This document shows positions 12,998 through 32,480 of a DNA stretch of 47,508 bases, in pieces. The notes beneath the pieces were generated by a model that did no database searches, had not been told where the DNA came from, and saw only the letters and a program-made list of their open reading frames with translations. The stretch's first letter is position 1. Each line of letters begins with the position of its first letter. The DNA comes from Wenzhouxiangellaceae bacterium. GTDB taxonomy: Bacteria > Pseudomonadota > Gammaproteobacteria > Xanthomonadales > Wenzhouxiangellaceae. Position numbers and translations under genes: made by a program. The stretch lies in NCBI GenBank assembly GCA_007135395.1, contig SLIZ01000046.1, positions 1 to 47,508 of the forward strand, given 5' to 3'.

Positions 12998-15472
12998 TCA
13001 AGTCCCGGGATTGTTAGCGCGGTCGATTCGTTGGCGGACATCTTCCAGGTGAATGCGGGTCGGGCGGTCGTCGATGCCGTTTTCCAGGGCTTCATCGATT
13101 TCCCCTGCCAGCAGTTGCAACTGATCCCGTATGAGCGGGTGAATATCTGACTGGCGAATGTGCAGGTCGGCGTTGAGCGGCGGGTCGTCGTTGGTCCCGA
13201 CCCGCAGGTTGCCCGATTCCGGGGGTTGCCAGTGATCGGACTCGGCCTCGTGGAGCAGGTAGTGGGCCTGTTCGATGAACGCCCGTTGCAGGTTGCGTCG
13301 CCATGTATCGATGGACTCCTGGTCATTGACCTCCCGCCAGATAATGGCCCGTGCATCGTCGAGCATGTCGGCCGGGCGGTAGGTTTCATCGCCGAGGAAG
13401 GCCTCGTGTTCGATCATCCGGGCCAGCCGGGCATGGTTGAGCAGCCGCTTCACGGCCAGTTCCTGGTAGGCCCGGATCCGCTCCACCGCCCCGGCATGTT
13501 CCAAACGCCGCAACAGGTCCATGTCCAGCGCCCAGGTGGGGGTGCCGAGGACGTGTTCATCGAGGAATGCCATGGCCTTTCGCTGGTAGTCCGGCTCGAT
13601 CGGGGTATAGACCGGTCCCGGTTCACCGTGGCGCTTGTGATGGGTCCAGGAACCGCCGATTGCGGCGGCGGCATGTTCGGCGTAGCGGTTCCACTGGGTG
13701 AGGTTTTGCAGGTAGTGGGTTTCGAGCTCGTAGTAATCGTTGCCCTCGGAAACCACCCAATCGAGCAGGCTTTCGGTGGCCGTCTTCAGGTTGCGCATAC
13801 CGTATTCGGCGGCCTTGACCGGGTCATCGGAAATGCCTTCGGTCATGCGGTACGGGTCCCACTCCACGTCCATTCCGAACTGGGGATGAGCCGAACGAAA
13901 CCAGGGCTTTTCGGCGCGCTCGACGATCCATTCGTCCAGGGTTTTAAATTCGTCTTCCGGACTCGTTGCTTCGGGGATGGGCCGGTAACCCCACATGATT
14001 GCGAACCTGTCCCATAGCCCGATGCGCCGTTCCGGCGGCACGCCGTCGCCGGGCTGGGCGATGTAGTTGTAGCGGGTACGTCCCACCGACGAGGCCGCGT
14101 GGCCCATTTCCTCGACAAATTCCGGCGAGCGCAGGGACTCGACCGGAAACACGAAGTTCGCTCGCTGGTTGTGGGGCAGGCCCATGGCATGGGCCTTTTC
14201 GTGGGAGACCACGTAGCGAAGGGCTTCGCCCAGGTCCTCTTCCGACAGCCGGCTGGTCCTGAAATCCGGGTTGGCCGTGGCCACCTGGGATACCAGCCAC
14301 CAGCGCAGGCGCTCGGCCAGCCCGTGGTACATGTTCATGTGCCCGCGCAGGACTTCTCCGGAACGCGGGTCGATCACGTCCCCCCCGGCGTTGGCCGAAC
14401 GCAGCGGCGAGGCGACGTAGCGGATCACGTTGTAGCGGGCATCGAGCAGGCTGAATTCCGGGTCCTCTTGCTCGGTCGGGGCCAGCCTGGCCTCCACGGC
14501 GTTCTTGAAGCCGGCTTCTTCGAAGGCGCTTTCCCACTCCATGATGCCGGCCTTGAAGTAGGGGATCCATTCCTCCGGGGTTGCTGGGTCGATATACCAG
14601 ACGATGGGCTGTTTGGGCTCGACCAGTTCACCGCGCTTGAACGCTTCCATGTCCGAGGGTTCCAGACGGTAGCGGCGCAGGTACTCGTAGGGACGAACGC
14701 CCTGGAAATCCCGGGAGTAATCGGTCTGGGTGACCGTGATGTAGGTGACCCGCTCATCGGCCAGGCGCGGCATCATGGGTGTCTCGGGCAGCAGGATCAT
14801 CGAGTGGTTGATCTCGAAGGACACCGTGCCGCCACGGGGATTGGAAGGCGGGTTGGCGGCATCGTAGGTGCGCACCGCCCGGACTTCGATGTTCTCGGGA
14901 AAAGCACGGGTCCATTCGAGCCAGCTGCGGTCCGGGTCGAACTCCCGGACTTCCAGGTTCTCGCGTTCGTTTTTCGGAAGGGAAAACGAGGGATGGTCGC
15001 CCAGGTAGAGCCCGGTGACATCGATGACCGAACTTCCATCCCGGTCGATCTCCACGGGAAAACTGGCAATGACCGGCGGGAAATTGGAATTTTCCACGGC
15101 CAGGTGCAGCGGGGAATCTTCCCGGGCGGTATTGGAATGGGACCGGGTGCGAAGATGAATCCGGTCGCCGCGGCGTTCCCACTGCACGACCATGTTGGCC
15201 GTCATCCGGTCACCCCCGCCGAGCCTGGCAAGGCCCTCCTGGGATCGGGCATAGCGGCTCATGACCACCATCTCGCGCCCGAGCATGTCATCGGGGATTT
15301 CGAACACGATACGTCCGTCGGGCTGGTAGACGGTAAACAGCCCCTCTTCTGATTCGGCTGCCTGCAGGTCGTCGTCGACCAGCGGGTCGGCAAGTCCGAC
15401 TGCCGGTAAAGCCAGGATGGCCACGGCGGTTAACAGATACACGGGAAACAGGATTTGCTGGATGGTTTTCAT
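12998..15472 (-). CDS. Secreted zinc-dependent metallopeptidase (DUF5117/DUF4953-like)
   Basis: An 824-residue exported protein; ATG 15472 gives a signal peptide MKTIQQILFPVYLLTAVAILALPAVGLA. The catalytic site is HEKAHAMGLPH (residues 424-434), an extended HEXXHxxGxxH zinc motif as in metzincins, followed by IMWGY in the position of a Met-turn-like segment. The N-terminal 400 residues resemble the DUF5117/5118 region of large bacterial zinc metalloproteases, and the C-terminal 350 residues the DUF4953 region. The substrate is unknown. It is convergent with the zinc-uptake cluster, and a small membrane-protein gene lies 48 bases upstream on the same strand. Confidence 0.85.
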   Translation of the reverse strand: MKTIQQILFPVYLLTAVAILALPAVGLADPLVDDDLQAAESEEGLFTVYQPDGRIVFEIPDDMLGREMVVMSRYARSQEGLARLGGGDRMTANMVVQWERRGDRIHLRTRSHSNTAREDSPLHLAVENSNFPPVIASFPVEIDRDGSSVIDVTGLYLGDHPSFSLPKNERENLEVREFDPDRSWLEWTRAFPENIEVRAVRTYDAANPPSNPRGGTVSFEINHSMILLPETPMMPRLADERVTYITVTQTDYSRDFQGVRPYEYLRRYRLEPSDMEAFKRGELVEPKQPIVWYIDPATPEEWIPYFKAGIMEWESAFEEAGFKNAVEARLAPTEQEDPEFSLLDARYNVIRYVASPLRSANAGGDVIDPRSGEVLRGHMNMYHGLAERLRWWLVSQVATANPDFRTSRLSEEDLGEALRYVVSHEKAHAMGLPHNQRANFVFPVESLRSPEFVEEMGHAASSVGRTRYNYIAQPGDGVPPERRIGLWDRFAIMWGYRPIPEATSPEDEFKTLDEWIVERAEKPWFRSAHPQFGMDVEWDPYRMTEGISDDPVKAAEYGMRNLKTATESLLDWVVSEGNDYYELETHYLQNLTQWNRYAEHAAAAIGGSWTHHKRHGEPGPVYTPIEPDYQRKAMAFLDEHVLGTPTWALDMDLLRRLEHAGAVERIRAYQELAVKRLLNHARLARMIEHEAFLGDETYRPADMLDDARAIIWREVNDQESIDTWRRNLQRAFIEQAHYLLHEAESDHWQPPESGNLRVGTNDDPPLNADLHIRQSDIHPLIRDQLQLLAGEIDEALENGIDDRPTRIHLEDVRQRIDRANNPGT

Positions 15473-15520
15473 GGGCAAAGGCAATTCACGGAAAGAGGTT
15501 GTAAGGAGATTGATCGGAAT

Positions 15521-17544: not shown

Positions 17545-20500
17545 ATGATCCCAGGATTGAAGCCTGCCTGTTTCGTAGCCCCTTCACTGGTCATCTCAGC
17601 AATCACATCCCGAATCCTGGCGACGGTGTTCGTGTCCGCCCTGCTTCTTGCAGGCTGCGGCGCCCATGGCGAGGATTCCAGCACGGACAATGATCCAGAC
17701 CGGTCGGATAATGCTGCCAAGGCCTCCGAAGACCTGCACGACAAGGCCGGCCGGGGTCTGGAAGGCTTTCCCGGTTCCCTTAGGGAAGGCGACCGTTCCG
17801 AGGAGCCCTATGAACGCCCGGAACTGGCCGAAACCCGGGATCTTGACGCCGAAGCGGTTGCCGCGCTGCTGGAAAGGCTCTCGCCACTGGTCGCCGAGCC
17901 CGAAGATGAAACGGAATTTGCCCTGCGCCCGGGCAGCCAGCCCCCGCCCCGGACCGGGGCTGTGGAGCGGGGCGAGTTCCCACCCCTCCAGGAGCGGGTC
18001 CCGCCTGAAGTCGAGCCGGTCGAAGGCCCCCTTGAGGTCATCCGGTTTTCCCCCGAGGGTCCGGTCCCGGTTGCCGGGCAGATCAGCCTGACGTTTGATC
18101 GGCCCATGGTGGCGGTCACCGCCCACGACGACCTGGCAGAACAGCCGCCACCGGCTGAGCTGCAACCGGATATTCCCGGCACCTGGCGCTGGGTGGGAAC
18201 CCGCACCCTGGTCTTCGAACCCGAAGCCGCCCGGCTGCCCATGGCCACCGAGTTTGCCGTCACCGTCCCGGCCGGTATTGCCGCAGCTGACGGGGCCGAA
18301 CTGGAAGAGGCTGTGGGCTGGGAATTTTCCACTCCACCGCCAGAACTGCAAGGGGTCTATCCTTCCGGTCACAGCGTGGGCCTTGAGCCCCTGATCTTTG
18401 CCGACTTTGATCAGCGGATTGATTCGGAGGCCTTGCTCGAAGTCCTGGCGTTGGTGCTGGAAGGGTCTGATGCTGATCCGCTGGAAATTCGCCTGGCCGA
18501 GGCTGACGAGATTGCCGCCGACGAAAATGTCGCCCGCCTGGTGGAGAACACTGAGCCGGGTCGTTATCTGGTCTTTCGGCCCGTCGAGCCTCTGCCAAGG
18601 GATGCCCGGCTCCAGGTTCGGGTGCCGGCCGGCGCCCCTTCCGCCGAGGGGCCAGTAGTCACGGAGAAAGAACAGAACCGGGACTTCCGTACCTACGGAC
18701 CCCTGACCGTGACCGATCAGCGTTGCGGGTCCAGCCGTTGTGCCCCGGATGACCGATTCATCCTTACCCTGTCCGAGCCGCTGGCCGAAGATCTGAAGAT
18801 CGGAGACAAGGTGGAAGTTGACCCGCCCATTGCCGGCTTGCACGTGGAAGCCCGAAGCCGGCAGATCACCATCGAGGGACTGAAAGACGGCCGAACAACC
18901 TATACGGTCAGGCTGGCCAGTGGCATTACCGACATCTACGGGCAGGAACTGGAGGGCGAGCCGGAATTCCGGTTTGATGTGGGAAGCCATGTGCCCCGGC
19001 TCAGCATTCCGGGTGGTCCTCTGGTCACCCTGGATCCTTTCCATGACCCGGTCCTGGACATTTTCAGTACCAACTACCGTTCGGTGACGGTTCATATCCG
19101 ACAGGTGGTGCCCGCCAACTGGCCGGAATATGCCCGCGCCCGGCGACACGGCAACCTGCGTCGGGCCGATACCGAGCCGGACCTGCCCGGAGAGGCGGTA
19201 TTGACCGAAAGGATGGACCTTGAAACCGAATCCGATGTCGTGACCCGCACCCGACTGGCACTGTCTGAGTGGCTGGACGAGGGGGCCACCGGGCATCTGC
19301 TGGTTGTTGTTGAACCCGGCGAGTCCCTGGGGCCGCCGCCACCCCGGCATTCGCCCGCTCGTCTTGTCAGCTGGGTCCAGGCCACTTCCATTGGACTGGA
19401 CGCGCTGGTGGATCCGGAGCATTTGCTTGTCTGGGCTACCGACCTTCGCTCGGGGGAACCCCTTTCCGATGTGGAAATCACCCTGGCTGGCCAGGAGCCT
19501 GTCGGGGTAACCGACGAGGGCGGCCTGGCCCGCCTGGACCTGCCCCCTGATGGCAAGGAAAGATCCAGCGATGGGCCGTCGGGCTGGATCCAGGCACAAG
19601 TGGGAGACCAGGTCGCCTTTCTGCCTGAATCCCAACACCACTTCTATGGCACCAGCGCCTGGCGGGCCCGCGAGAAATCCGAGGAGGTCCTCTGGCATGT
19701 GTTTGACGACCGGGCGATGTACCGACCGGGCGAAACCGTCCACCTGAAGGGCTGGATCCGGCGCATGGAGCGCCGACCGGACGGAGGCCTGGGACTGATC
19801 GATCCAGATGCTGATATCAGTTACAGGCTTTCCGACTCCCGGGGCAACGAAATGGCATCTGGCCAGACTGGTCTGTCCCGGTTGGGCGGGTTTGATTTTT
19901 CCCTGGAAATTCCCGACACACCCAACCTGGGTATTGCCAGCGTGGAACTGTCGATCTCCGGTGGCAGCGGACTGTCCCGGACCCGTTATAACCACCATCT
20001 GAAAATCGAGGAATTCCGCACGCCGGAATTCCAGGTCGCCACGCACCTGCCTGACGGGCCATTCGTGGGCAGCCGGGCCGTGGATGCCCGGGTCGGGGCC
20101 AGTTATTACGCCGGCGGGCCCTTGCCCGGGGCCCAGGTCGACTGGCTGGTATCGGCTCAGCCGGGCCAGTTCCGCCCTCCCAACCGGGACGACTGGCAAT
20201 TCGGTTTCCAGCCGTCCTGGCCGGTCCCCTGGATGAGATCGCCGGAGAGCAATGGCCGCCAGGTGGAAGACTACGAAAGGTTCAGCGGATTGACCGACGC
20301 CACCGGTAATCATCATCTGACCATCGATCTGGATATGGAAGACCAGCTACGCCCCCTGGCCATGACGGCCCGGGCCCAGGTCATGGACGTCAACCGCCAG
20401 GCCTGGACCGATGCTTCGGATTTTCTTGTTCACCCCGCGGCAGTCTATGTGGGCATGAAGACCGATGGCTATTTCGTCGACCCCGCCGACGGGCTGGAAG

Positions 20501-23500
20501 TGGAAATGATCACGGTGGACCTGGATGGAGAAATCGCGCCGGGCCGGGAGGTGGTCGTTGAGGCCGGCCGGGTTCGGTGGCATGGTCGCAGTGGCGAGGA
20601 AGAACTGGCCGACCGCCAGCGCTGCGAGGTGACCAGCGATGAAGACGGTCGGGCCCGTTGCCAATTCGAGACGGCCCTGGGGGGACAGTACCGGATGACT
20701 GCCATTGTCACCGACGGCGAGGACCGCGCCAATGCCAGCCGGATCACCCGATGGGTCAGCGGGGGCCGCATGCCTGCCAGCGACGGGGTGGAAATGGAGG
20801 ATGTTCTCCTTATCGTCGAAAACGACGAATACGCCCCCGGCGACACCGCCCGGGTGCTTGTCCAGGCGCCTTTCGAAAACGCCGAGGGCCTGATGACCCT
20901 CAGGCGGCATGGAATCGCCGAGCAGCACCGGTTCCGGATGGACGGTGCCACCCACACCCTGGAGGTTCCCCTGAAGCATGAATGGATGCCTGGTATCGAA
21001 GTCCACGTCACCCTGGTGGGTCAGAGCGCCAGGGAGGAGGCCGAAGAAGGGGAGGCACCACGTCCGGCCATTGCCACCGGGTCGGAGATGCTGGCCATCT
21101 CTACCGCCGAGCGGGCGCTGGATATCAGCCTTGAGCCGGTAGCCAGGGAGCTGGAGCCGGGTTCGGAAACTACCGTGGATCTGCTGGTGCGAAATGCCCG
21201 GGGAGAGCCGGTGGCCGATGCGGAAGTCGCCCTGGTAGTTGTGGATGAGGCCATCCTGGCCCTGACTGGCTACGAATGGATCGATCCACTGGGTGTGTTC
21301 TATCCCGAGCGTTCGGGGGAAGTGTCCGATTACCATCTGCGCCCCACCATTGCCCTGACCGATCCGGAGGAGGGTATGGAAAAGCTCGAATCTGAAATGA
21401 TGGTCGGAATGGCCGCTGACAGCATGGACAGGGTAACCGTGACCGGGTCCCGGATGGCCGGGCCGGTTGATGAAGGACAGGCCATTGAAGTCCGGGAGGA
21501 TTTCAACCCCCTGGCGGCGTTCCTTCCAGGCCTGGTGACCGATGCCGACGGCCGGGTTACCGGAAATTTTCGCCTGCCCGACAACCTGACCCGCTACCGG
21601 GTCATGGCGGTGGCCGTTGCCGATACCCGGTACTACGGGATTGCCGAGTCGGCCATTACCGCGCGCCTTCCGTTAATGGTCCGCCCAAGCCCGCCCCGGT
21701 TTCTCAACTTTGGGGATATGTTCGAGTTTCCGGTGGTTTTGCAAAACCAGACTGACCAGGTGCTCGGCGTCCAGGTGGCCATGGAAGCGTCCAACCTGGA
21801 GCTGACCGAAGCCCGGGGCTTCGGGCTGGAGATTCCAGCCAATGACCGGGTGGAAGTGCGCTTTCCGGCAAGGGCCCGCCAGGCGGGGACGGCCCGCTTC
21901 CAGGTGGCTGCAACTACCGTCGATCCAGGGAATGGCGAAAGCGGCCGGGCCGATGCCGCAAGGGGAGAATTGCCCGTGTGGACCCCGGCGACCACCGAGG
22001 CCTTTGCCACCTATGGCGTGATCGACGAAGGAGCCATCGTCCAGCCGGTTGTCGCCCCGACGGATGTCTGGCCCCAGTTTGGCCAGCTCGAGATTACCAC
22101 CAGTTCCACTGCCGTGCAGTCGTTGACCGATGCATTCATCTATCTCCACGACTACCCCTTCCCGGGTACCGCCCAGGCCGCGTCCCGCATGCTGGCCGTT
22201 TCTGCCCTGGCCGACGTGCTGCGGGAGTTCGGGGTAAGCGATCTGCCCGAACCCGAGGAGATCGAGGCGTCGATGAAACGGGACATGGAGCTTCTGGCCG
22301 GGCGTCAGAACCGGGACGGTGGCTTTGCACTCTGGCGGCAGGGCCAGGAATCCTGGCCCGTTGTGACCCTGCATGTTGCCCACGCCCTTGTTCGGGCCCG
22401 GGAAAAGGGCTTTGAAGTCGACGAGGAGTTGTACGACTCGACCATGAGACATGTGGTCAACATCGAGCGGCACATTCCGGAACGCTACGGGGATCATGCC
22501 CGGCGCCACCTGGTGGCCTACAGCCTCTATGTGCGTGGCCTGACCGGGGATTTCGACCGTAGCAGAGCCCGGGCGCTGATCGACGAGGTCGACGGTCTCG
22601 AAGACCTGACCTTCGAATCCGCCGGCTGGCTTCTGGGCGTGTTGACCGGCGACGAGGAATCGGCCGATGAACTGGGAAGAATCCGGCGCTTTCTGGCCAA
22701 CCGGGTCACCGAGACCGCGGCAGCGGCCCATTTTGTGAGCGAATGGCAGGATGATGCCCACCTGATCCTGCATTCCGACCGCCGGGCGGATGCCATCATC
22801 CTGGAAGCCCTGATGGACGATGATCCGGAATCCGACCTGATTCCGAAGATCGTCAACGGACTCCAGGCCCACCGCACCCGGGGGCGCTGGGGCAATACCC
22901 AGGACAACGCCTTTGTCCTGCTCGCCCTGGACAAGTACTTTCGCCGCTACGAGTCCCAGGAACCGGATTTTCTCGCCCGGGCCTGGCTGGGCGAGGACTT
23001 TGCCGGGGAGCACCGGTTCAGCGGGCGGACCACCGATTCGCACCAGATCGAGATTCCCATGGGCTGGCTGGTCGACCGGGACGGGCAGCAGGACCTGGTG
23101 CTGGACAAGGAGGGACCGGGCCGGATGTACTACCGGGCCGGCCTTCGCTATGCCCCCCGGGATCTGAACATGGAAGCGGCCAGTCACGGCTTCGAAGTCC
23201 AGCGCACCTACCGGGGCGCCGATGATGAATCCGACGTTCGCCAGCGCGAAGACGGCACCTGGGAAATCCGGGCCGGCAGCCGGGTGGAAGTGGAACTGAC
23301 CCTGATCGCGCCCACCCGTCGCTACCACGTGGCCCTGGTGGACCCCCTGCCGGCGGGGCTGGAATCCCTCAACCCGGCCCTGGCGGTGACAGCTGATGAC
23401 AACAACCACACTGCCGGGACCCGGTCCTGGTGGTGGGGCCCCTGGTACGAACACCAGAACCTGCGCGATGAACGCACCGAAGCCTTTGCCACACTGCTTC

Positions 23501-23652
23501 GTGGTGGAGTCCATACCTACTCCTACTACGCCCGGGCCACGACCCCCGGGGAATTTGTCGTGCCCCCGGCACGGGCCGAGGAAATGTACCACCCGGAAAC
23601 CTTCGGCCGCAGCGCCTCGGCCCGGGTGATCGTCACCGACCCGTCCCGGTAA
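17545..23652 (+). CDS. Alpha-2-macroglobulin family lipoprotein lacking the thioester
   Basis: The product is 2035 residues, with a lipoprotein signal ending LLLAGCG (lipid-carrying Cys38). A Glu/Pro-rich linker, a series of macroglobulin-type beta domains, and the canonical A2M core follow (REDFNPLAAFLPGLVTDADG ... LPDNLTRYRVMAVAVADTRY). A terpenoid-cyclase-like helical domain begins near 1520. The family's thioester motif YPYGCxEQ is replaced by YPFPGTAQ (1537-1544): Cys becomes Gly1541 and Glu becomes Ala1543, so covalent trapping is impossible. Bacterial A2Ms are periplasmic protease traps; thioester-less types like YfaS exist. No penicillin-binding protein 1C gene lies next to it, unlike the yfhM type. 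RVTVTGSRM at about 1301 lies in the exposed region preceding the A2M core. Confidence 0.93.
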   Translation: MIPGLKPACFVAPSLVISAITSRILATVFVSALLLAGCGAHGEDSSTDNDPDRSDNAAKASEDLHDKAGRGLEGFPGSLREGDRSEEPYERPELAETRDLDAEAVAALLERLSPLVAEPEDETEFALRPGSQPPPRTGAVERGEFPPLQERVPPEVEPVEGPLEVIRFSPEGPVPVAGQISLTFDRPMVAVTAHDDLAEQPPPAELQPDIPGTWRWVGTRTLVFEPEAARLPMATEFAVTVPAGIAAADGAELEEAVGWEFSTPPPELQGVYPSGHSVGLEPLIFADFDQRIDSEALLEVLALVLEGSDADPLEIRLAEADEIAADENVARLVENTEPGRYLVFRPVEPLPRDARLQVRVPAGAPSAEGPVVTEKEQNRDFRTYGPLTVTDQRCGSSRCAPDDRFILTLSEPLAEDLKIGDKVEVDPPIAGLHVEARSRQITIEGLKDGRTTYTVRLASGITDIYGQELEGEPEFRFDVGSHVPRLSIPGGPLVTLDPFHDPVLDIFSTNYRSVTVHIRQVVPANWPEYARARRHGNLRRADTEPDLPGEAVLTERMDLETESDVVTRTRLALSEWLDEGATGHLLVVVEPGESLGPPPPRHSPARLVSWVQATSIGLDALVDPEHLLVWATDLRSGEPLSDVEITLAGQEPVGVTDEGGLARLDLPPDGKERSSDGPSGWIQAQVGDQVAFLPESQHHFYGTSAWRAREKSEEVLWHVFDDRAMYRPGETVHLKGWIRRMERRPDGGLGLIDPDADISYRLSDSRGNEMASGQTGLSRLGGFDFSLEIPDTPNLGIASVELSISGGSGLSRTRYNHHLKIEEFRTPEFQVATHLPDGPFVGSRAVDARVGASYYAGGPLPGAQVDWLVSAQPGQFRPPNRDDWQFGFQPSWPVPWMRSPESNGRQVEDYERFSGLTDATGNHHLTIDLDMEDQLRPLAMTARAQVMDVNRQAWTDASDFLVHPAAVYVGMKTDGYFVDPADGLEVEMITVDLDGEIAPGREVVVEAGRVRWHGRSGEEELADRQRCEVTSDEDGRARCQFETALGGQYRMTAIVTDGEDRANASRITRWVSGGRMPASDGVEMEDVLLIVENDEYAPGDTARVLVQAPFENAEGLMTLRRHGIAEQHRFRMDGATHTLEVPLKHEWMPGIEVHVTLVGQSAREEAEEGEAPRPAIATGSEMLAISTAERALDISLEPVARELEPGSETTVDLLVRNARGEPVADAEVALVVVDEAILALTGYEWIDPLGVFYPERSGEVSDYHLRPTIALTDPEEGMEKLESEMMVGMAADSMDRVTVTGSRMAGPVDEGQAIEVREDFNPLAAFLPGLVTDADGRVTGNFRLPDNLTRYRVMAVAVADTRYYGIAESAITARLPLMVRPSPPRFLNFGDMFEFPVVLQNQTDQVLGVQVAMEASNLELTEARGFGLEIPANDRVEVRFPARARQAGTARFQVAATTVDPGNGESGRADAARGELPVWTPATTEAFATYGVIDEGAIVQPVVAPTDVWPQFGQLEITTSSTAVQSLTDAFIYLHDYPFPGTAQAASRMLAVSALADVLREFGVSDLPEPEEIEASMKRDMELLAGRQNRDGGFALWRQGQESWPVVTLHVAHALVRAREKGFEVDEELYDSTMRHVVNIERHIPERYGDHARRHLVAYSLYVRGLTGDFDRSRARALIDEVDGLEDLTFESAGWLLGVLTGDEESADELGRIRRFLANRVTETAAAAHFVSEWQDDAHLILHSDRRADAIILEALMDDDPESDLIPKIVNGLQAHRTRGRWGNTQDNAFVLLALDKYFRRYESQEPDFLARAWLGEDFAGEHRFSGRTTDSHQIEIPMGWLVDRDGQQDLVLDKEGPGRMYYRAGLRYAPRDLNMEAASHGFEVQRTYRGADDESDVRQREDGTWEIRAGSRVEVELTLIAPTRRYHVALVDPLPAGLESLNPALAVTADDNNHTAGTRSWWWGPWYEHQNLRDERTEAFATLLRGGVHTYSYYARATTPGEFVVPPARAEEMYHPETFGRSASARVIVTDPSR

Positions 23653-28046: not shown

Positions 28047-29669
28047 TTGCGTTTTGCAACTGTATTGCTGGCGACTTTCATGCTGGCCACGGGATTGCCG
28101 GTTCAGTCTTCCGAGCTTCGCCAGCCGGTCCCCGGCGTGCATGCCCTGACCGACGTCCGGATTGTAACCGGGCCCGGTGAGGTTATTGACAACGGAACCG
28201 TGGTCATCCGGGACGGGGTGATCGCAGCCGTTGGAGCCGATGTGGCCATTCCGCCGGATGCCCGGATTCACACCTTCGAGCAGGACGAAGATCAGGACCC
28301 GGTCACCCTCTATCCAGGTTTGATCGAGCCCTATCTCTCCGTCGACTCCGAGCCCGATGAGGACGAAAACGGACAACCCCCTCCAGGGCGCCATGAACTG
28401 TTGCGGCCGGATTTTGCCGTGGATGCCGGCCTGTGGCCCCAGGACCGGGTCCAGGCCCTGCGCCAGGCCGGCTTCACAACCGCCGTCCTGGCCCCCGACC
28501 ACGGCCTTTTGCGCGGCCAGGGAAAGATCGTCAACCTGGGAGAAGGCGGCGCTGCGAACAACGTGCTTATTGCACCGTTCGGCCAGTTTGCCAGTTTCGC
28601 CGACCGGGCCGGCAACCGGCGTTTCCCTGGCTCCCTGATGGGTGCCGTGGCCCTGATGCGCCAGACCCTGGACGATGCCCGCTGGCAGCACCAGGCCCGC
28701 CGGGCCTGGCAGGAAAACCCGGCCCAGCCAAGGCCGGAATGGCTGGAAGGCCTGGATGCCCTGGACCCGGTCATGGAAGGACAAACCCCCCTGGTATTCG
28801 TTTCCGAAGACAACCACGACAGCCTGCGCATTGCCGAATTTGTGTCCGACGAATCGGTGGACCTGGTCCTGGTCGGCCACGGCAAGGAATACCAGCGCCT
28901 GGATGCCCTGGCCGAGCTTTCACTGCTCCATATTCTGCCCGTGGATTTTCCCGAGGCCCCGGAGGTCAAGGACGAGGATGATCGCAACGTGTCCCTGTCC
29001 GAACTGCGCCACTGGGACCGGGCACCGGACAATCCGCGGCTCATGAATGAAGCCGGCATTCCGTTTCTCCTGACGACCCACGAGCTTTCCAATCCCTCTG
29101 CCATCTTCGCCGGCCTTGCCCGGGCGGTTGAGCGGGGCCTGGATCCGGACGTTGCGCTGGCTGCCCTGACCACCGGTCCTGCCCGATGGCTGGGACTGGA
29201 CGACCGGGCAGGGCAGATTCGAACCGGCGCAATGGCCAACCTGCTGGTCGTCAATGGTGACCTGTTTACCGAAGGCCCCGGGATCGCCCAGGTCTGGGTG
29301 GATGGAAACCGGTTTGTCGTGGAGGCCATCGAGCCCCCGACGGTGGATCCGGCGGGCACCTGGGAGGTGACCCTGGGTATGGGCGAGATGGGTGACATGG
29401 ATGCCCGGATCGTGTTGTCCGGCCCCCCCACGTCCATGACCGGCACGATGGAAGTGATGGGAACCGAGGCGAGCTTCGACGAAGTCCGGGTTTCCGGTGA
29501 GCGGGTCATCGCCCGGCTCGATGCGGCCCGGCTGGGCGGGTCGGGCACCATTACCGTTCGCCTTGAAATCGATGGAGACCGGGCCCGGGGAACGGGCAGC
29601 GGGCCATTCGGGGAATTCACCGTTCGGGGCCGGCGCACGGCAACGCCGGACGAGGAGGAAGGACAATGA
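28047..29669 (+). CDS. Exported amidohydrolase-like protein, metal site lost
   Basis: A 540-residue protein beginning with TTG (GGAG about 11 bases upstream) and a signal peptide (about 1-22). It has the amidohydrolase frame: a small beta-domain (LTDVRIVTGPGEVIDNGTVVIRDG), a barrel, then GAMANLLVVNGDLF closing the composite beta-domain. The first-strand motif, normally PGxIDxHxH, reads PGLIEPYLSVD (90-100): both metal-binding histidines are replaced (Tyr96, Ser98). An extra beta domain of about 100 residues follows residue 435. It is therefore probably not a normal metallohydrolase, and may be a structural partner of the active enzyme encoded next. Its stop overlaps the next start as ATGA. 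Confidence 0.8.
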   Translation: MRFATVLLATFMLATGLPVQSSELRQPVPGVHALTDVRIVTGPGEVIDNGTVVIRDGVIAAVGADVAIPPDARIHTFEQDEDQDPVTLYPGLIEPYLSVDSEPDEDENGQPPPGRHELLRPDFAVDAGLWPQDRVQALRQAGFTTAVLAPDHGLLRGQGKIVNLGEGGAANNVLIAPFGQFASFADRAGNRRFPGSLMGAVALMRQTLDDARWQHQARRAWQENPAQPRPEWLEGLDALDPVMEGQTPLVFVSEDNHDSLRIAEFVSDESVDLVLVGHGKEYQRLDALAELSLLHILPVDFPEAPEVKDEDDRNVSLSELRHWDRAPDNPRLMNEAGIPFLLTTHELSNPSAIFAGLARAVERGLDPDVALAALTTGPARWLGLDDRAGQIRTGAMANLLVVNGDLFTEGPGIAQVWVDGNRFVVEAIEPPTVDPAGTWEVTLGMGEMGDMDARIVLSGPPTSMTGTMEVMGTEASFDEVRVSGERVIARLDAARLGGSGTITVRLEIDGDRARGTGSGPFGEFTVRGRRTATPDEEEGQ

Positions 29670-31174
29670 TGAGGTTTGTGAAAACTGCAACTGGCACCCT
29701 CGCAGGTCTGGCCCTGGTCTCGGGCCTGGCCCTGGCCGATTCGAACGACCAGTGGACGCCGGACATCGAGGCCTGGAACAGCCCGCCACCGCCGGCCCCT
29801 GCCGCGGTCCTGGTACGGGATGCCACCGTCTGGACCGGCACCGAAGACGGCATCCGGGAATCAACCGACCTGCTGGTTCGCAATGGCCGGATCGATCGAA
29901 TCGGTTCCGGCCTGTCGGCACCCGGTGGGGAAGTCCTGGAGATCGACGGCTCCGGCCTGCACATCACCCCGGGGATCATTGATGGTCACTCCCATGCGGC
30001 CATGCTGGGCGGGGTCAACGAGATGACCCGGATCAGCACCGCAGATGTGCGGGTGCGCGATGTGATCGACTCTGAATCCGTCCACATCTACCGCCAGCTT
30101 GCAGGCGGTGTAACCACGGTCAACCTGCTTCATGGCTCGGCCAATGCCATTGGCGGCCAGAACGCCATTATCAAGTTCCGCTGGGGCGAGCCGCCGGAAG
30201 CGCTGTTGTTCGAAGGTGCCCCGGAAGGGATCAAGTTCGCCCTGGGTGAAAATCCCAAGCAGAGCAACTGGGATGTGGATGAACCGCGTTATCCCCAGAC
30301 CCGTCACGGGGTCGAGCAGATCATCCGGGAAAAATTCCAGCAGGCCGAGGAGTATCGGAGGGCCCTGGACGAAATGCCCTCCGGCCGGGCCGGCCGGGAT
30401 CGGGTAGCCCCCCGCCCGGACCACGAACTGGCCGCCATTGCCGAGATCCTCCGCGGCGAAAGGGATGTCCATGCCCACGCCTACCGGGCCGACGAGATGC
30501 TGGCCCTGATGCGCCTGGCGGAGCAATTCGATTTCACCATCAAGACCTTCCAGCATGTACTGGAAGGCTACAAGATCGCCCCTCAAATGGCCGAGCACGG
30601 TGCCGGCGGGTCCACCTTCATCGATTGGTGGGGGTTCAAGTACGAGGCTATCGACGGCATCGGCTACAACCCGGCACTGATGCACGAGGCCGGCGTGCTG
30701 ACCGCGCTTCATTCCGACAACCCGGAACTGGCCCGGCGGATGAACCTGGAAGCGGCCAAGGCGGTTCGCTACGGGGGCGTGGACGAACACGATGCCCTGA
30801 AAATGATTACCGCCTGGGCGGCCGATCAACTGGGGATCGGCGACCGGGTGGGCCGGCTGAAAGAAGGCCTGGATGCCGATTTTGTCATCTGGAATGGTCA
30901 CCCGCTTTCGGTGCAGTCAAAGGTCGAACAGACCTGGGTGGACGGGCGGCGATACTTTGACCGGGCCGCTGATGAGCGCATGAACGAAAACCTGGAGGCC
31001 GAGCGGGCCGATTTGATTGCCCGGGCCCTGGATGACAACGGCGACGGGGCGGAAAACGGTAACGACAACAACAACGAAGACACCGATGAGTCCCCTGGCC
31101 TTGCAACCCATCTGCTCGGCTACAGCCGTTCGGAACTCGACCATGACCATTTCTGCATCCTGCATGAGCACTGA
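29666..31174 (+). CDS. Exported amidohydrolase with intact metal site
   Basis: A 502-residue protein with a signal peptide (about 1-22, ending LALA-D). It resembles imidazolonepropionase-like metal-dependent hydrolases. The HxH motif is present in PGIIDGHSHAAM (His108, His110). Further candidate ligands are His in DVHAHAYRAD and in FQHVLEG, and Asp in ALHSDNPELA. The C-terminus is unusual: an acidic, Asn-rich stretch (DDNGDGAENGNDNNNEDTDE) followed by a His-rich end DHDHFCILHEH. The gene is translationally coupled to the first amidohydrolase and followed 25 bases later by the third. The substrate is unknown; exported members act on amide or cyclic peptide-like compounds. Confidence 0.88.
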   Translation: MMRFVKTATGTLAGLALVSGLALADSNDQWTPDIEAWNSPPPPAPAAVLVRDATVWTGTEDGIRESTDLLVRNGRIDRIGSGLSAPGGEVLEIDGSGLHITPGIIDGHSHAAMLGGVNEMTRISTADVRVRDVIDSESVHIYRQLAGGVTTVNLLHGSANAIGGQNAIIKFRWGEPPEALLFEGAPEGIKFALGENPKQSNWDVDEPRYPQTRHGVEQIIREKFQQAEEYRRALDEMPSGRAGRDRVAPRPDHELAAIAEILRGERDVHAHAYRADEMLALMRLAEQFDFTIKTFQHVLEGYKIAPQMAEHGAGGSTFIDWWGFKYEAIDGIGYNPALMHEAGVLTALHSDNPELARRMNLEAAKAVRYGGVDEHDALKMITAWAADQLGIGDRVGRLKEGLDADFVIWNGHPLSVQSKVEQTWVDGRRYFDRAADERMNENLEAERADLIARALDDNGDGAENGNDNNNEDTDESPGLATHLLGYSRSELDHDHFCILHEH

Positions 31175-31199
31175 TTCGATGACAAACCGGGATTCCAAG

Positions 31200-32480
31200 A
31201 TGAACCGAGTACGCATACAAGCCGCGCTGTTTGCCGCATTCATGCTGGCAGCCACCGGCCCCCTGGCTGCCGAAGTCGTTGCGCTGGTCGGTGGTACCGT
31301 TCACCCGGTTACCGGGCCGGCCATCGAGGATGGTGTTGTGGTGATGGAAAACGGGCGGATCCTCCAGGTCGGCTCGGACGTGGAAATTCCCGAAGATGCC
31401 AGGGAAGTGGATGTGGACGGGCTGCACCTGTATCCGGGCTTTATCCATCCGGCCACAAGCCTGGGGCTGACCGAGATCAGCAGCGTGGCCGGCACCGTGG
31501 ATCTCGCGGAAATCGGGAACATCAACGCTGCCGTGCGAGCCGAGGTGGCCGTCAACCACGACTCCGAGCTGTTTCCCGCAACCATCGCCGGCGGGGTGCT
31601 TTCCGCCCACATGGTTCCCGGTGGCGGCCTGATCCGCGGCACTTCGGCGGTAATGAACCTGGATGGCTGGAGCTGGGAGGAAATGGTGATCTCCACGCCG
31701 GTGGCCATGCACCTGGATTTCCCCCGGGATTCGGTGGACAACGAGGACAGTGACGAACTGGCCGCCATCGAAAAGGTTCTCGATCAGGCCCGGCACTGGC
31801 ACAAGGCCCGGCGGGCGGCCGACGAAAACGACAGCCGGCCGCCGGTGCGCAATGATCAGCTCGAAGCTCTTGGCCCGATGCTGGACGGGGAGGTGCCCCT
31901 GATGATTCACGCCAACCGGTCCGATGTCATGGAAGCGGCCCTGGACTGGGCCGAGGAACAGGAACTGGAGCGGATCATCCTGGTAGCCAACGCCGATGCC
32001 CAGTACCTGGCCGAGCGCCTGGCCGCCGAGGATATTCCGGTGATCCTGCGCAATGTCTATGCCATGCCCACCCGGCGCTGGGAGCCCCATGACATGGCCT
32101 TCAGGGCCCCGGCCCGGTTGCACGAGGCGGGGGTGCGCTTTGCCATTGCCGATTCCGGCGGTGGGCTGGATGTGGCCAATTCACGAAACCTGCCCTTTCA
32201 CGCCGGCAGCGCGATGGCTCACGGGTTGCCGGCCGAGGCGGCACTGAAAAGCGTTACCCGCTGGCCAGCGGAAATACTCGGAGTCGACGGAGAACTGGGT
32301 GCCCTGGAACCCGGGCTCAGGGCGAGTCTGTTTGCCGCCACGGGAGACCCCCTGGAACCGATGAGCCGGATCGAGCGGGTCTGGATCGACGGGCAGGAGT
32401 ACGACCTGTCGCGCAAGCGGGGCCGGGAGCTCTACCATCGCTACCGGGAGCGCAACCGGTCGGTCAGGCAGGGTGACTAA
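31200..32480 (+). CDS. Exported amidohydrolase-like protein, metal site lost (second)
   Basis: A 426-residue protein; ATG 31200 gives MNRVRIQAALFAAFMLAATGPLAAE, a clean signal peptide (ATG 31179 is possible). It keeps the amidohydrolase shape (VALVGGTVHPVTGPAIEDGVVVMENG; ALEPGLRASLFAATGDPLE). In the first-strand motif PGFIHPATS (79-87), both canonical histidines are replaced (Ala85, Ser87). Like the first gene of the operon it is probably catalytically changed or inactive. The set of one intact and two degenerate paralogues in one operon suggests a heteromeric complex. A strong hairpin follows 4 bases after the stop. Confidence 0.8.
   Translation: MNRVRIQAALFAAFMLAATGPLAAEVVALVGGTVHPVTGPAIEDGVVVMENGRILQVGSDVEIPEDAREVDVDGLHLYPGFIHPATSLGLTEISSVAGTVDLAEIGNINAAVRAEVAVNHDSELFPATIAGGVLSAHMVPGGGLIRGTSAVMNLDGWSWEEMVISTPVAMHLDFPRDSVDNEDSDELAAIEKVLDQARHWHKARRAADENDSRPPVRNDQLEALGPMLDGEVPLMIHANRSDVMEAALDWAEEQELERIILVANADAQYLAERLAAEDIPVILRNVYAMPTRRWEPHDMAFRAPARLHEAGVRFAIADSGGGLDVANSRNLPFHAGSAMAHGLPAEAALKSVTRWPAEILGVDGELGALEPGLRASLFAATGDPLEPMSRIERVWIDGQEYDLSRKRGRELYHRYRERNRSVRQGD

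Follow-up and report, generated by a model that had tools for sequence, protein, structure and literature searches.

The window (the whole 47,508-nucleotide stretch that we analysed, from a Wenzhouxiangellaceae bacterium) carries three tandem genes for exported amidohydrolase-fold proteins, A, B, and C, in which only the middle protein has an intact metal site. The A-B-C arrangement occurs in at least eight phyla. Judging from the alignments, the dead-live-dead pattern is far beyond chance; it recurs in every relative system that we examined. We consider it likely that the three proteins make up one functional unit in the periplasm, with B as the catalytic subunit, C as an obligate pseudoenzyme, and A packed on B.

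Each of the three proteins scores above the curated Pfam cut-off for Amidohydro_1 (PF01979); A and C reach 38.7 and 27.7 bits, compared to a gathering score of 25. All three N-termini look like Sec signals when judged by eye. None of the proteins reaches a cut-off among the NCBIfam curated families: B scores 55.4 bits against hutI imidazolonepropionase (TIGR01224, cut-off 298) and 39 bits against Xaa-Pro dipeptidase (NF051886, cut-off 500), and is a member of neither. A is composed of a pseudo-amidohydrolase barrel (about residues 25-430), known as secondary structure from an AF2 model of a fused A-B protein, and a beta-rich C-terminal domain, which has beta strands at 427-522 in that model and corresponds to the linker domain in A-B fusions. 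The coordinates of these genes and of their main features are collected in Table 1.

Table 1. Features of the three-gene operon in the window.
Feature	Position	Strand	Remarks
Gene A, exported pseudo-amidohydrolase	28047..29669	+	540 aa, TTG start
A, Tyr96-Leu-Ser98, place of the lost HxH	28332..28340	+	
A, beta-rich C-terminal domain	29343..29666	+	about residues 433-540; from sequence and strands in the fused model
Gene B, exported amidohydrolase with intact site	29666..31174	+	502 aa; shares an ATGA with the stop of A
B, His108-Ser-His110, first metal ligands	29987..29995	+	
B, Lys170	30173..30175	+	Lys; Arg in some distant B
B, Glu195	30248..30250	+	within GENPK motif
B, His271	30476..30478	+	
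B, His297	30554..30556	+	
B, Asp351	30716..30718	+	final metal ligand/catalytic Asp
B, conserved Cys/His tail	31103..31171	+	ends LLGYSRSELDHDHFCILHEH; follows Asp/Asn-rich linker
C, alternative in-frame ATG	31164..31166	+	11-base overlap with B
Gene C, exported pseudo-amidohydrolase	31200..32480	+	426 aa from ATG at 31200; other possible starts 31164, 31179
C, Ala85-Thr-Ser87, place of the lost HxH	31452..31460	+	numbering from ATG 31200

The preliminary description had proposed that the starts of the three genes are coupled. This holds for A and B: the stop of A and the start of B overlap in an ATGA at 29666-29669, and the coupling is found in 23/23 family relatives examined, with the start of B lying between -4 and +2. 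The 25-base gap before C, in contrast, may not be real, given that the in-frame ATG at -11 is also found in 12 of 22 family relatives.

Active members of the amidohydrolase superfamily carry an HxH on strand 1, His residues on strands 5 and 6, and an Asp on strand 8; the metal is held by the equivalents of H108, H110, H271, and D351, with the equivalent of H297 assisting. All five of these ligands are present in B in 135 of 135 proteins. Together with K170 and E195, they make up seven positions that we followed in a joint alignment of the main set, and all seven are kept in 135/135 B, where the conservation of E195 and H297 partly reflects how the proteins were chosen, given that the scan pattern included B motifs; the loss of these residues from A and C owes nothing to that choice. 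The HxH motif is found in 0 of 136 A domains and 0 of 123 C proteins. None of the seven residues is kept in 109 of the 136 A domains, and the remaining A domains keep one or two; most C proteins keep the His271 equivalent alone or nothing, with a maximum of three. An extended set yielded no HxH in 149 A domains and no complete site in 149 A or 185 C, so that relatives with a working site in the first or third gene did not appear. One C protein of the 185, at locus L205, does have an HxH, and its site is incomplete, lacking H271, H297, and D351. The residues named in the preliminary description (Tyr96 and Ser98 in A, HSH at 108-110 in B, Ala85 and Ser87 in C) are correct, and the loss of the metal site that it saw in A and C extends past the HxH, to all the other positions of the site in A and to nearly all of them in C. 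Going by these residues, A and C are almost certainly without catalytic activity, and B is probably an active, exported, metal-dependent hydrolase.

The closest solved relative of both B (E 9e-56) and C (E 2e-30) is 3ooq, an amidohydrolase of Thermotoga maritima; A matches it weakly in sequence (E 1.3e-5). The B part of the fused model superimposes on 3ooq with a Z of 42.1 (2.1 A over 370 residues, 36% identity), and the model of C from the window (pLDDT 91.0) does so with a Z of 46.9 (2.1 A over 362 residues). B and C belong to the 3ooq lineage, which is nearest to them in both sequence and fold, well above other amidohydrolases; the second-ranking fold matches are isoaspartyl dipeptidases and prolidases, with Z of about 20-25. 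What sets the operon apart from 3ooq, a single protein whose HSH is intact in sequence, is its export, its dead partners, and its Cys/His tail. Imidazolonepropionase (HutI) and the Xaa-Pro/Xaa-Arg dipeptidases (3n2c, 2qs8, 3mtw) share the superfamily and the barrel with the operon proteins and are likewise second-ranking fold matches, but B falls far under the curated cut-offs of the HutI and Xaa-Pro families. We know of no organisation of HutI or of these dipeptidases with dead paralogues.

To follow the system beyond the window, we searched for A in 200 genomes of the order and read 55 loci; A, B, and C were found in 54 further systems, with C lost to a contig end in one. In the window's family, the three are separate genes, nearly always coupled; outside it, most families have A and B fused into one chain (about 1000-1180 aa), and C adjoins it. 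A scan of GTDB genomes with the fusion gave 80 loci that we read, with about 500 more candidates beyond those. All 80 are A-B fusions, and they are spread over eight phyla: Pseudomonadota, Bacteroidota, Verrucomicrobiota, Planctomycetota, Ignavibacteriota, Fidelibacterota, Zixiibacteriota, and Eiseniibacteriota. One Bacteroidota clade also has separate A and B genes, and its A and C are again dead. On a plasmid of Hymenobacter volaticus (L190, NZ_CP095062.1), an A-B fusion is split into several open frames annotated as separate amidohydrolases; this broken fusion is probably a decayed copy.

A more distant branch has no A. It consists of a two-gene B-C system in Pseudomonadota and Bacteroidota, with a dead C beside B in 49/49 loci; the search with the fusion query had reported these relatives as B alone, and the C-like gene emerged when the loci themselves were read. 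B of this branch keeps H108, H110, H271, H297, and D351, while K170 may be Arg and E195 may be Thr. Three further relatives of B (L193-L195, from Bacillota and Actinomycetota) stand alone, lacking a partner within 4 kb. The lone, B-C, and A-B-C forms suggest a series from a single enzyme, to an enzyme with one dead partner, to an enzyme with two, and the lone enzymes indicate that the catalytic domain needs no partner in principle.

In a phylogeny built from 115 domains, each of the three proteins forms a single clade (SH-aLRT 99-100), and one branch sets A, C, and the C of the two-gene pairs apart from the rest (SH-aLRT 99). The AU test does not reject an independent duplication in the third system (p-AU 0.31); a single loss for all dead domains is favoured by the tree, not shown. 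In the tree of B, the fused proteins form one clade that calls for one change (bootstrap 95, SH-aLRT 86). Because the separate forms lie outside this clade, the fusion is derived, and the split arrangement of A and B in the window is probably ancestral. One fused A-B from the window's own family (L067, genome G029) groups with Idiomarinaceae (100/99); this copy was likely acquired by transfer between groups.

The preliminary description had suggested a complex of one catalytic and two non-catalytic subunits. The division of labour is well supported, with the site in B alone and none complete in A or C, and from the sequences a multi-part enzyme is very likely. As for the complex itself, the case for A and B comes from their natural fusion. 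We ran AF2 on one such fusion (L090, with 72 fused sequences), and the model of 963 residues, with a pLDDT of 91.6 and a pTM of 0.91 that may owe something to the covalent link, points to a confident placement of both barrels relative to each other and to the beta domain. The case for B and C comes from the conserved operon and from co-occurrence where the genes are unlinked. Among 148 Bacteroidota genomes, 94 have B (as AB or as B); C is present in 93 of these 94 and in 0 of the 54 without B. In the sole genome with B and no C (G504), the AB match ends early. In several of the Bacteroidota genomes, C sits on a different contig or roughly 1 Mb from B. Contig-end cases aside, nine AB loci lack an adjoining C, and in 9/9 of these genomes a complete or almost complete C is present at another place; no HxH is found in any of the eight that are readable, nor is one seen in the matching frame of the ninth, a partial copy. 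Given that C is found even when unlinked from B, this co-occurrence is stronger evidence than the operon. We infer that B and C are in direct contact and that C acts in stability or substrate access.

A known precedent is pDHO of the Pseudomonas aspartate transcarbamoylase (ATCase), an inactive protein with the amidohydrolase fold on which the activity of its partner depends (PMC7053772). The dead subunit accompanies the catalytic one in our systems, as would be expected of the pDHO-ATCase type (93/94 versus 0/54 genomes, together with the 49 B-C loci). The two differ in that the partner of pDHO is an unrelated, cytosolic enzyme, whereas the dead subunits of our systems are paralogues of the enzyme that they accompany, and each of the proteins is exported.

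The co-occurrence of B and C could also reflect a common pathway rather than a complex. A, B, and C would then be separate periplasmic proteins, with A and C serving as substrate-binding or delivery barrels that enter no stable complex; for C, the operon and the co-occurrence fit such an arrangement equally well, as does the occurrence of C at some distance from AB in certain genomes. We nevertheless regard it as unlikely, given the natural A-B fusion with its confidently placed pair of barrels. In addition, the barrels would derive from a family of oligomeric enzymes, and paralogue heteromers are a usual outcome of duplications in such families.

It is less probable still that A or C, or both, are active by other chemistry or with a different metal site, so that all three would be enzymes. 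The idea draws on the His residues in the 'VGHG' and 'T(S/T)H' motifs of A (beta-6 and beta-8 positions), held by nearly all A proteins in the window's family, and on the His271 equivalent, which is present in 79 of 123 C. However, the conservation of the two His residues in A ends outside that family, A has no invariant His or Cys, and those acidic residues that are conserved in C sit in a loop common to C and B. Our conservation analysis found no three-ligand set, and no conserved set of His, Asp, Glu, or Cys fit for another metal site, in either A or C; the alternative intact site named as a possible counter-argument in the preliminary description did not emerge from it.

That A and C are merely redundant copies in decay, retained by hitch-hiking, can hardly be credited: catalytic residues have indeed been lost in one or more duplicated copies, but the reading frames are intact, the motifs are conserved over eight phyla, the proteins form separate conserved clades, C is retained even where unlinked, and its confident model and close fit to 3ooq argue that it is not decaying.

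We return to the reading of A, B, and C as one functional unit. B, the only protein with an intact metal centre, would act in the periplasm and hydrolyse an amide bond, with its metal held by H108, H110, H271, and D351 and with H297 assisting. C would be a pseudoenzyme paralogue on which B depends, probably in a B-C heteromer where it stands in for the second copy found in a homo-oligomeric ancestor. A, likewise a pseudoenzyme, would pack against B, as a separate chain in the window and as part of a fused chain in most phyla. Both partners may stabilise B and complete or gate its substrate pocket. Loops that are modelled with low confidence yet are highly conserved, in B (GENVKQS, ADWWAFKFEVYDA) and in C (residues 91-106), could be interface loops.

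B also has a distinctive C-terminal tail. In ABC systems, 115 of 123 B proteins have a Cys within the last 35 residues, after a low-complexity linker, and the Cys mostly neighbours His, Tyr, or acidic residues; Cys occurs at 1.39 per 100 aa in the tail compared to 0.23 in the rest of the protein. The tail reads HC(D/E)(D/T) in Bacteroidota, YHxGxxxxxC(S/T)xxEH in the order (Xanthomonadales), and LTGYRxSELDHDEYCxxHDH in the window's family, where its convincing occurrence is limited to B. The A-less B-C pairs of Pseudomonadota have a different conserved tail on B, SDFELGQPGEGD, without Cys. The tail may act in metal loading, partner docking, or disulfide formation.

With regard to the substrate, no conserved neighbours of ABC mark it; the best cluster covers 7 of 80 loci. 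A POT-family peptide transporter lies directly upstream of the B-C pair, on the same strand, in 8/49 loci (L184, L192, L198, L200, L215, L216, L219, and L224; PF00854 in the two that were checked). This neighbour and the dipeptidases among the structural neighbours give a weak hint of a peptide-like substrate; we infer an amide, possibly a dipeptide-like compound. Elsewhere in the window are genes for an exported-type met-zincin with DUF5117/DUF5118/DUF4953 (12998-15484, minus strand) and for a 2035-aa bacterial alpha-2-macroglobulin-like protein with bait region, A2M, bMG10, and MG2 domains (17545-23652, plus strand).

In the literature covered, which included few subscription papers, we found nothing on the function of 3ooq, nor any account of amidohydrolases in tandem or of exported ones that are dead; within it, the dead-live-dead amidohydrolase system is apparently undescribed, widespread as it is. 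We tentatively suggest, at somewhat below even odds, a large class of exported heteromeric amidohydrolases whose catalytic subunit cannot work unless joined by one or two paralogues that lack the metal (B-C or A-B-C), the tail of B loading or sensing periplasmic metal. In the annotated plasmid records that we examined, such proteins are labelled just 'amidohydrolase (family protein)'. This plain label credits A and C with an activity that is almost certainly absent; it also hides the probable need of B for its partners, which may cause assays of B on its own to fail. This old enzyme-pseudoenzyme system occurs naturally in two parts, in three parts, and fused, and it has a relative without partners; it would allow a direct test of what dead paralogues do.
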